32,735 nt of DNA from Phycisphaerae bacterium (lineage in GTDB: Bacteria > Planctomycetota > Phycisphaerae > Tepidisphaerales > Tepidisphaeraceae). Location: contig JACMML010000365.1 in NCBI GenBank assembly GCA_014379105.1, positions 1 to 32,735 of the forward strand. Reading direction: 5' to 3'. The notes under the pieces are model-generated. The model was not told where the DNA came from, did not search any database, and saw nothing but the letters and a program-made list of their open reading frames with translations. Position numbers and translations under genes: made by a program. This document shows, in pieces, positions 9,257-9,955 of the stretch; the first letter of the stretch is position 1; each line of letters begins with the position of its first letter.

Positions 9257-9955
9257 TCAGTAATGTTTTCCGACTACGATCACATGCCCCGCCAGCGCCG
9301 GATGATCGACCGCATTGCTCGAGAGGTTCCATCGCTTCTTATTCCACGCCGTTACATTCGCGATCTCCTCCGCTGCCTTGGGGCCCTTCATCGCCAGCAG
9401 GATCGAAGATCGCCGCATTAGTTTGTCGCACCAGCCGAGCAGCTTATCCAGCTCGGCCACGGCGCGGGCGGTGACGATGTCGTACTTTTCGTCGAGGTCT
9501 TCCATGCGCGAATGGATCGCGCGAATATTCGTGACGCCAATCTCCCCGACCATCGCCATGACGGCGTCCAGCTTTTTCTTTGTCGAATCGATAAGCGTCA
9601 CGGAGATGTCCGGCCGGGCGATAGCAATGATCACTCCAATAATCCCACCGCCGGCGCCTACGTCGGCCAGCTGGATTGGTCCCCTCTCCATCCGGGAGAG
9701 GGTTTGGGTGAGAGTGCCTGCACTACCGGTTCCGCCTGTGCCCTCACCCCGACCCTCTCCCGGAGGGAGAGGGAGAAATCGCAGCAGCGTCAGCGCGTCG
9801 GCCACATGCTTGATCTCGGCGTCGGCGCGATCGCTGATGCGCGTCAGGTTCAGCACTTTGTTTTTTTCGATCAGCAGGTCGAGATACTGGTCGATTTTCG
9901 ACAGTTGATCCTGAGATAAGTGGCTGCCGGAGATTTGATTCCAGACGGGATTCAC
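9257..9955 (-). CDS. rsmG: 16S rRNA (guanine527-N7)-methyltransferase RsmG with an in-frame repeat insertion
   Basis: NLTRISDRADAEIKHVADALTLLRFLPL...ADVGAGGGIIGVIIAIARPDISVTLIDSTKKKLDAV...YDIVTARAVAELDKLLGW is the RsmG signature. Confidence 0.9.
   Translation of the reverse strand: MNPVWNQISGSHLSQDQLSKIDQYLDLLIEKNKVLNLTRISDRADAEIKHVADALTLLRFLPLPPGEGRGEGTGGTGSAGTLTQTLSRMERGPIQLADVGAGGGIIGVIIAIARPDISVTLIDSTKKKLDAVMAMVGEIGVTNIRAIHSRMEDLDEKYDIVTARAVAELDKLLGWCDKLMRRSSILLAMKGPKAAEEIANVTAWNKKRWNLSSNAVDHPALAGHVIVVGKHY
9682..9773. repeat. Intragenic palindromic repeat element within rsmG
   Basis: Arms 9682-9714 and 9741-9773 are inverted repeats (29/33 by eye) around a 26-nt spacer. Each arm contains its own smaller hairpin (CCCTCTCC...GGGAGAGGG). 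Confidence 0.88.

Follow-up and report, generated by a model that had tools for sequence, protein, structure and literature searches.

The gene rsmG of a Tepidisphaeraceae planctomycete, which encodes the 16S rRNA (guanine527-N7)-methyltransferase, contains a long palindrome within its reading frame. This raises the questions of what kind of element the palindrome is, how it might have reached this gene, and how the enzyme accommodates it.

The insert in rsmG and its effect on the protein

The window (the whole 32,735-nt stretch of DNA that was analyzed) was inspected at the position where an initial annotation had described a palindrome, and the description was exact: two 33-bp arms match at 29 of 33 positions and flank a 26-nt centre (Table 1). 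A repeat search of the window recovered the inner 31 nt of the arms at 90%, and each arm contains the sub-hairpin that had been noticed earlier (CCCTCTCCN-loop-GGGAGAGGG). The hairpin pattern has 4 matches in the window, versus 0.09 expected, and none of 100 shuffled sequences reached this number. The RNA strand of the element has a fold energy of −69.8 kcal/mol (z = −6.8 versus shuffles).

Table 1. Positions of the rsmG insert, its parts and the DUF559 genes located between BoxC halves
Feature	Location	Strand	Remarks
rsmG, 16S rRNA (guanine527-N7)-methyltransferase, 232 aa	9257..9955	-	frame unbroken through the element
SAM-binding motif I of RsmG, ADVGAGGG, residues 97-104	9644..9667	-	follows the insert immediately in the direction of the gene
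Whole inserted BoxC element with 3-nt tips (GTC ... AGA)	9679..9776	.	
Residues 61-92 of RsmG, encoded by the element	9680-9775		LPLPPGEGRGEGTGGTGSAGTLTQTLSRMERG
Type-A-like BoxC/TM unit	9682..9714	+	hairpin CCCTCTCCA-TCC-GGGAGAGGG, loop TTT, third strand GGGTGAGAG
Unique centre of the pair	9715..9740	.	other copies have a centre longer by about 12 nt
Type-B-like BoxC/TM unit	9741..9773	-	CCCTCTCCC-TCC-GGGAGAGGG, loop TCG, GGGTGAGGG
DUF559 gene between BoxC halves	L093:2047-2498 = own genome G000 C344:6546-6997		frame continues through BoxC half into sua5
Second DUF559 gene between BoxC halves	G021 C8		appears as two overlapping loci

The assignment of the host gene to RsmG is supported by PF02527 (E 1e-35) and TIGR00138 (112 bits, cut-off 99.5), and the palindrome indeed lies in frame just before SAM-binding motif I. 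The loop from 'LLPFLP' to 'xLADVG' has 32 residues here versus about 4–13 in 23 of 23 aligned family members, a net gain of about 28 residues over most of them, in agreement with the earlier estimate of about 30 residues in place of a short linker. The linker is similarly short in the RsmG structures of B. subtilis and E. coli. The insert was also absent from 25 further organism-named rsmG loci (Phycisphaerae, Tepidisphaeraceae, Humisphaera and some more distant organisms), which stem partly from the same genomes as the 23. All relatives checked thus lack the insert, and non-palindromic loops of the same length, which would speak against an insertion, were not seen among them. The short loop of the relatives suggests that either a small deletion accompanied the insertion or the original loop was short.

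An AlphaFold2 model of RsmG, based on 25 homologues, kept the methyltransferase fold with a mean pLDDT of 88.6 and mostly above 90 in the core, versus 55 for residues 71–80 and 63 for residues 81–90 of the insert, which is consistent with a mostly flexible loop. Of the proposal that the element is tolerated as a disordered loop, the intact, confidently modelled core agrees with the tolerance, and disorder would be one reading of the low scores; we infer that the enzyme still functions and that the insertion was close to neutral. The label of an 'essential-type' gene was too loose, rsmG being dispensable in E. coli.

Identity of the element and its copies in the genome

BoxC (described in the 1990s), the PIT element (2000) and the intrastrand-triplex motif TM_ECO are one and the same, with the published pattern CCCTCNCCCN3-6GGGNGAGGGN3GGGNGAGGG (PMC4666352, PMC2869309). 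Judged by its sequence, the palindrome in rsmG is an inverted A/B pair of this family. With a membership threshold of at most one mismatched pair to the pattern, the minus-strand unit (9773-9741) matches with 0 mismatches and the plus-strand unit shows two departures. Close TM_ECO pairs in E. coli are inverted and combine type A with type B (PMC4666352, PMC2869309). The rsmG pair is inverted as well. The second loop of its A-like unit is TTT, where E. coli has TTA, and that of the other unit is TCG, a loop shared with TM no. 12 and 20 of E. coli, both listed as B. When the element served as a blastn query, matches were obtained in 5,395 of 5,426 E. coli genomes; the best-matching places, which have no gene beneath them, are 78.5% identical across 98% of the query. 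The same hairpin has been counted 100 times in Enterobacter sp. 638 (PMC4666352, PMC2869309). Rfam families matched the element only below their gathering scores, the best being mir-2545 (RF03891, E 3e-8), and the matches were judged to reflect hairpin resemblance. The mir-2545 family itself, with its sub-gathering match at window 9682-9773, may merit a check for bacterial sequence. Peptide strings had no match in the literature searched.

In the source genome (G000), 69 BLAST matches to the element were found at about 40 places. These copies, together with the relatives lacking the insert, uphold the earlier view that a miniature repeat invaded rsmG, a view that a genome devoid of copies would have contradicted. 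The hairpin pattern had 51 + 52 matches in this genome versus 0 + 0 for the reversed pattern used as a control. Of 37 stretches with copies that were extracted, 13 contain a full pair, bordered by 3-nt tips of only a few kinds (GTT, ACT, GTC, GCT, ATC / AGT, AAC, GAC, AGA). Without tips, the rsmG copy comprises 92 nt versus 103–105 nt in the other 12, and its shorter centre would preserve the reading frame. As regards the terminal inverted repeats and target-site duplications of MITEs, inverted ends are present, and no clear duplication was seen by eye in the 13 flanks.

Eight of the 13 full pairs lie in frame in conserved genes, namely those for PurL, ValRS, RsmG, QueE, a U32 peptidase, SMC, CobA-HemD and a B12-binding radical SAM protein, and a single BoxC unit lies in frame in the class II ribonucleotide reductase gene. 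These calls rest on Pfam or structural homology on both sides of, or around, the copy; copies in weakly coding frames on contigs C61 and C153 were left out of the count. In this genome, insertions have thus affected nine or more conserved genes on separate contigs, rsmG among them. Between aligned blocks, ValRS has 57 residues versus 12 in the T. thermophilus enzyme (1gax), and QueE has 66 residues versus 37 in the comparison. Because the lengths of 103–105 nt vary, and because in nearly every full copy a stop is present in a frame of either strand, the in-frame copies probably represent what has survived of numerous insertions. The assembly is 81% complete in 419 contigs, so that single copies could be misassembled, but the same pattern recurs on many independent contigs and genomes.

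Two candidate sites were rejected: a single match in an HlyD/GAF gene (C250), which has no third strand and was regarded as chance, and an open frame joining DUF559 and Sua5 (L093), where a BoxC half lies between two genes and fuses their frames rather than interrupting sua5. Single BoxC units on contigs C61, C135, C153, C189, C275 and C352 (L065, L073, L076, L077, L081, L087, L094) have longer flanking sequence in common (ggcttcgtttgttccgtc...), which suggests that a larger, composite repeat exists.

The likeness to BoxC/PIT/TM_ECO comprises the hairpin with its third-strand sequence, the inverted A/B pairing, the multi-copy state and the DNA identity to the E. coli pairs. In contrast to the in-frame copies described above, the elements are always intergenic in E. 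coli K-12. However, intergenic location is a property reported for E. coli and not a sequence criterion, and therefore the in-gene copies mark a variant while the membership stands. The published list covers 262 proteobacterial genomes with TM_ECO and does not mention planctomycetes (PMC4666352, PMC2869309).

Palindromes in related genomes and the association with DUF559 genes

Family-wide alignments of ValRS and PurL revealed that the loops hit in G000 carry other inserts in relatives. The ValRS loop of G019 contains, at the DNA level, another BoxC pair. Palindromes of the type CACGGGCG..CGCCCGTG (peptides TGVPPV/HGRDARAT) are present in ValRS of G010 and in PurL of G020 and G021, and further palindromes in ValRS of G020 and G025 and in PurL of G022. 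In ValRS of G012, a CCCGAGC.TGAGCGAGGGG palindrome (PLAHARGS) occurs on both sides of a Y1_Tnp (RAYT-like) domain within one frame of 1605 aa; by our count, this valS gene (L348:1157-5971, C157) holds three copies of the palindrome. Since ValRS of the closest relative, G009 (82% identity), has no insert, the insertions in G000 and G019 look independent. Copy numbers confirm that the palindromes of the relatives are repeats (62 matches in G012, 63 in G020 and 105 in G019, where most places are counted once per strand). Six in-frame BoxC copies were located in G019, in the genes for ValRS, DNA ligase, a radical SAM protein, a P-type ATPase, Dus and an Lnb-domain protein, and the other palindrome of G012 was found in PutA (twice), CarB, a fumarase/aspartase-type lyase, PurL, OpuAC and ValRS. 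Many copies in G021 have no long frame over them; the long open frames over copies in G025 and G021 had no Pfam check and were left out of the counts. G025 also harbors a longer BoxC relative of about 151 nt (L114-L133, L150-L153) with an extra inner stem (GCCGCGGCTGCGCCGCG) and a ACCTCTCCC end.

Mobility genes were never found near BoxC in a survey of 2015 (PMC4666352). A search of the Tepidisphaeraceae loci for DUF559 returned only two distinct genes, each placed precisely between two inverted BoxC halves (Table 1), a result that is biased, as these loci were mostly fetched around BoxC copies and the search was prompted by the copy on contig C344. A sample free of this bias was formed by 26 DUF559 genes on plasmid records, chosen by protein homology only, and 19 of them have a BoxC-like pyrimidine/purine hairpin within 200 nt, as defined by a detector looser than the TM_ECO pattern. 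Near the 26 loci, 39 hairpins were seen versus 2.0 expected (1.97 per kb versus 0.103 elsewhere in the same stretches), in a sample that is not fully independent, with several records each of Sphingomonas, Azospirillum and Deinococcus. Across ten annotated 16-kb stretches, a hairpin was found at 6 of 10 DUF559 genes versus 8 of 122 other genes (P = 8e-5).

The DUF559 gene of Deinococcus psychrotolerans lies between inverted repeats of about 70 nt, and an Eco57I-type restriction-modification methylase on the Pseudanabaena galeata plasmid NZ_CP112876.1 (L382:403-3336) contains an in-frame BoxC-DUF559-BoxC unit. The ycjD gene of E. coli MG1655 overlaps at its 3' end with a BoxC-like hairpin and has TM_ECO no. 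9 within 200 nt. An apparent second, partial copy of the ycjD 3' end, noticed by eye, lies between ycjD and TM_ECO no. 9 (L374:1540-1930). Three DUF559 genes are located inside operons (L383:1486-1881, L395:7977-8387, L381:1465-1818), between transhydrogenase subunit genes, between sufB and sufC, and between paaD and paaZ; this placement might resemble that of a small mobile gene. No DUF559 relative was confirmed in viral contigs.

The hairpin core varies among lineages, as expected for an enzyme-site pair. By analogy with RAYT and REP, DUF559 is a candidate mobilizer of BoxC, on correlative grounds. On the basis of this association, we see an even chance that BoxC/PIT/TM palindromes form the ends, and also the non-autonomous copies, of a mobile element with DUF559 (YcjD-like, PD-(D/E)XK-type) as its enzyme. 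This would be a RAYT/REP-like system that uses a different nuclease, occurs in Proteobacteria, Cyanobacteria, Deinococcota and Planctomycetota, and can insert in frame in genes. In the literature searched, which is a part of the whole, neither BoxC inside genes nor a link of DUF559 to BoxC, YcjD or palindromic repeats was found.

Alternative explanations, known precedents and implications

Very probably, the feature in rsmG is a dispersed, inverted A/B pair of the BoxC/PIT/TM_ECO type that was inserted into this gene of a Tepidisphaeraceae planctomycete and is tolerated in a loop, and whose family also occupies at least eight more conserved genes. The pair entered the RsmG loop ahead of SAM motif I with the reading frame kept and no stop in the rsmG frame of the element; the loop site, the kept frame and the missing stop would explain why the insertion survived, leaving an enzyme that has gained about 30 residues, most of them flexible. 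Members of this family were likewise inserted in frame into the additional genes, and the best candidate for its mover is the DUF559 nuclease encoded between BoxC halves.

Movement by a REP-associated tyrosine transposase (RAYT, Y1_Tnp), with the element being REPIN-like as are the GTAG REPs, appears unlikely. Paired inverted hairpins with short conserved tips do resemble REPINs, Y1_Tnp genes occur in 26 of 26 family genomes, and valS of G012 contains, in frame, a complete Y1_Tnp domain with another palindrome on its flanks. However, none of the 31 Y1_Tnp loci examined has a BoxC hairpin within about 1.5 kb, the tips are GTT/ACT/GTC/GCT and AGT/AAC and not GTAG or CGTC, and the source genome has only two Y1_Tnp genes, both weak. 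The stability of the hairpin, and a centre that differs by about 12 nt from other copies and thereby keeps the frame, could also be taken as signs of an adaptive insert, retained as a loop or as an RNA/DNA hairpin that regulates rsmG or its product. Against this stand the presence of the same element in unrelated genes and between genes, its absence from rsmG in every relative, and the lack of promoter or terminator activity of PIT elements in earlier work (PMC4666352, PMC2869309), so that we regard adaptation as quite improbable. Least credible of all, and highly improbable, is that the palindrome was created by faulty assembly or binning, or arose by chance in GC-rich code: repeats do break assemblies and this draft genome is fragmented, but shuffling of the window never reproduced its hairpin count, 103 hairpin matches face none in the control, nine conserved genes on separate contigs have intact frames, and G019 and G012 contain insertions of the same kind.

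The dispersed BoxC pair has precedents in its behavior. Rickettsia palindromic elements (RPEs) insert in genes (PMC10969869, PMC2229807), and intragenic REPs are known from Opitutus terrae, Thioalkalivibrio and R. conorii (PMC3733652). The comparison with RPEs made in the initial annotation holds for the in-frame insertion of a palindrome of about 100–150 bp into many unrelated conserved genes, where it is tolerated. By its sequence, the element is classed as a BoxC/PIT/TM_ECO inverted pair and not as an RPE: the likeness is one of behavior, the host belongs to another phylum and has a larger genome, and here several unrelated palindrome families occur in the same loops together with a candidate mobilizing gene. 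The GTAG/CGTC REPs are similar in forming palindromic dimers that encode 20–30 residues in conserved genes, supposedly as loops, also in the PVC superphylum (PMC3733652), whereas BoxC has neither a GTAG nor a CGTC tag and no RAYT neighbor. The RAYT-REP system shares with BoxC the idea of a small chromosomal enzyme gene flanked by palindromes that the enzyme may move, but the flanked gene is DUF559, of a PD-(D/E)XK-like nuclease family, and not an HUH transposase. The insert in rsmG is an in-gene variant of a known repeat. Intragenic REPs and RPEs were already known; relative to the literature searched, the additions are the in-gene location of BoxC and the observation that the same loops receive different palindromes repeatedly.

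The spread of BoxC has been without explanation since the 1990s, and a gene located repeatedly between or beside BoxC units makes the question testable in E. coli K-12 (ycjD). The DUF559 association, correlative so far, is the most valuable by-product of the analysis. For annotation, peptides such as 'PLPPGEGRGEG' or 'LTLTLSRRERE' mark repeat-derived segments. Palindromic repeats that add 20–45 residues to core enzymes are not confined to Rickettsia, and in the Tepidisphaeraceae, where no fewer than three palindrome families have independently entered the same loops of ValRS and PurL, they provide a natural record of insertion-tolerant sites in essential proteins.
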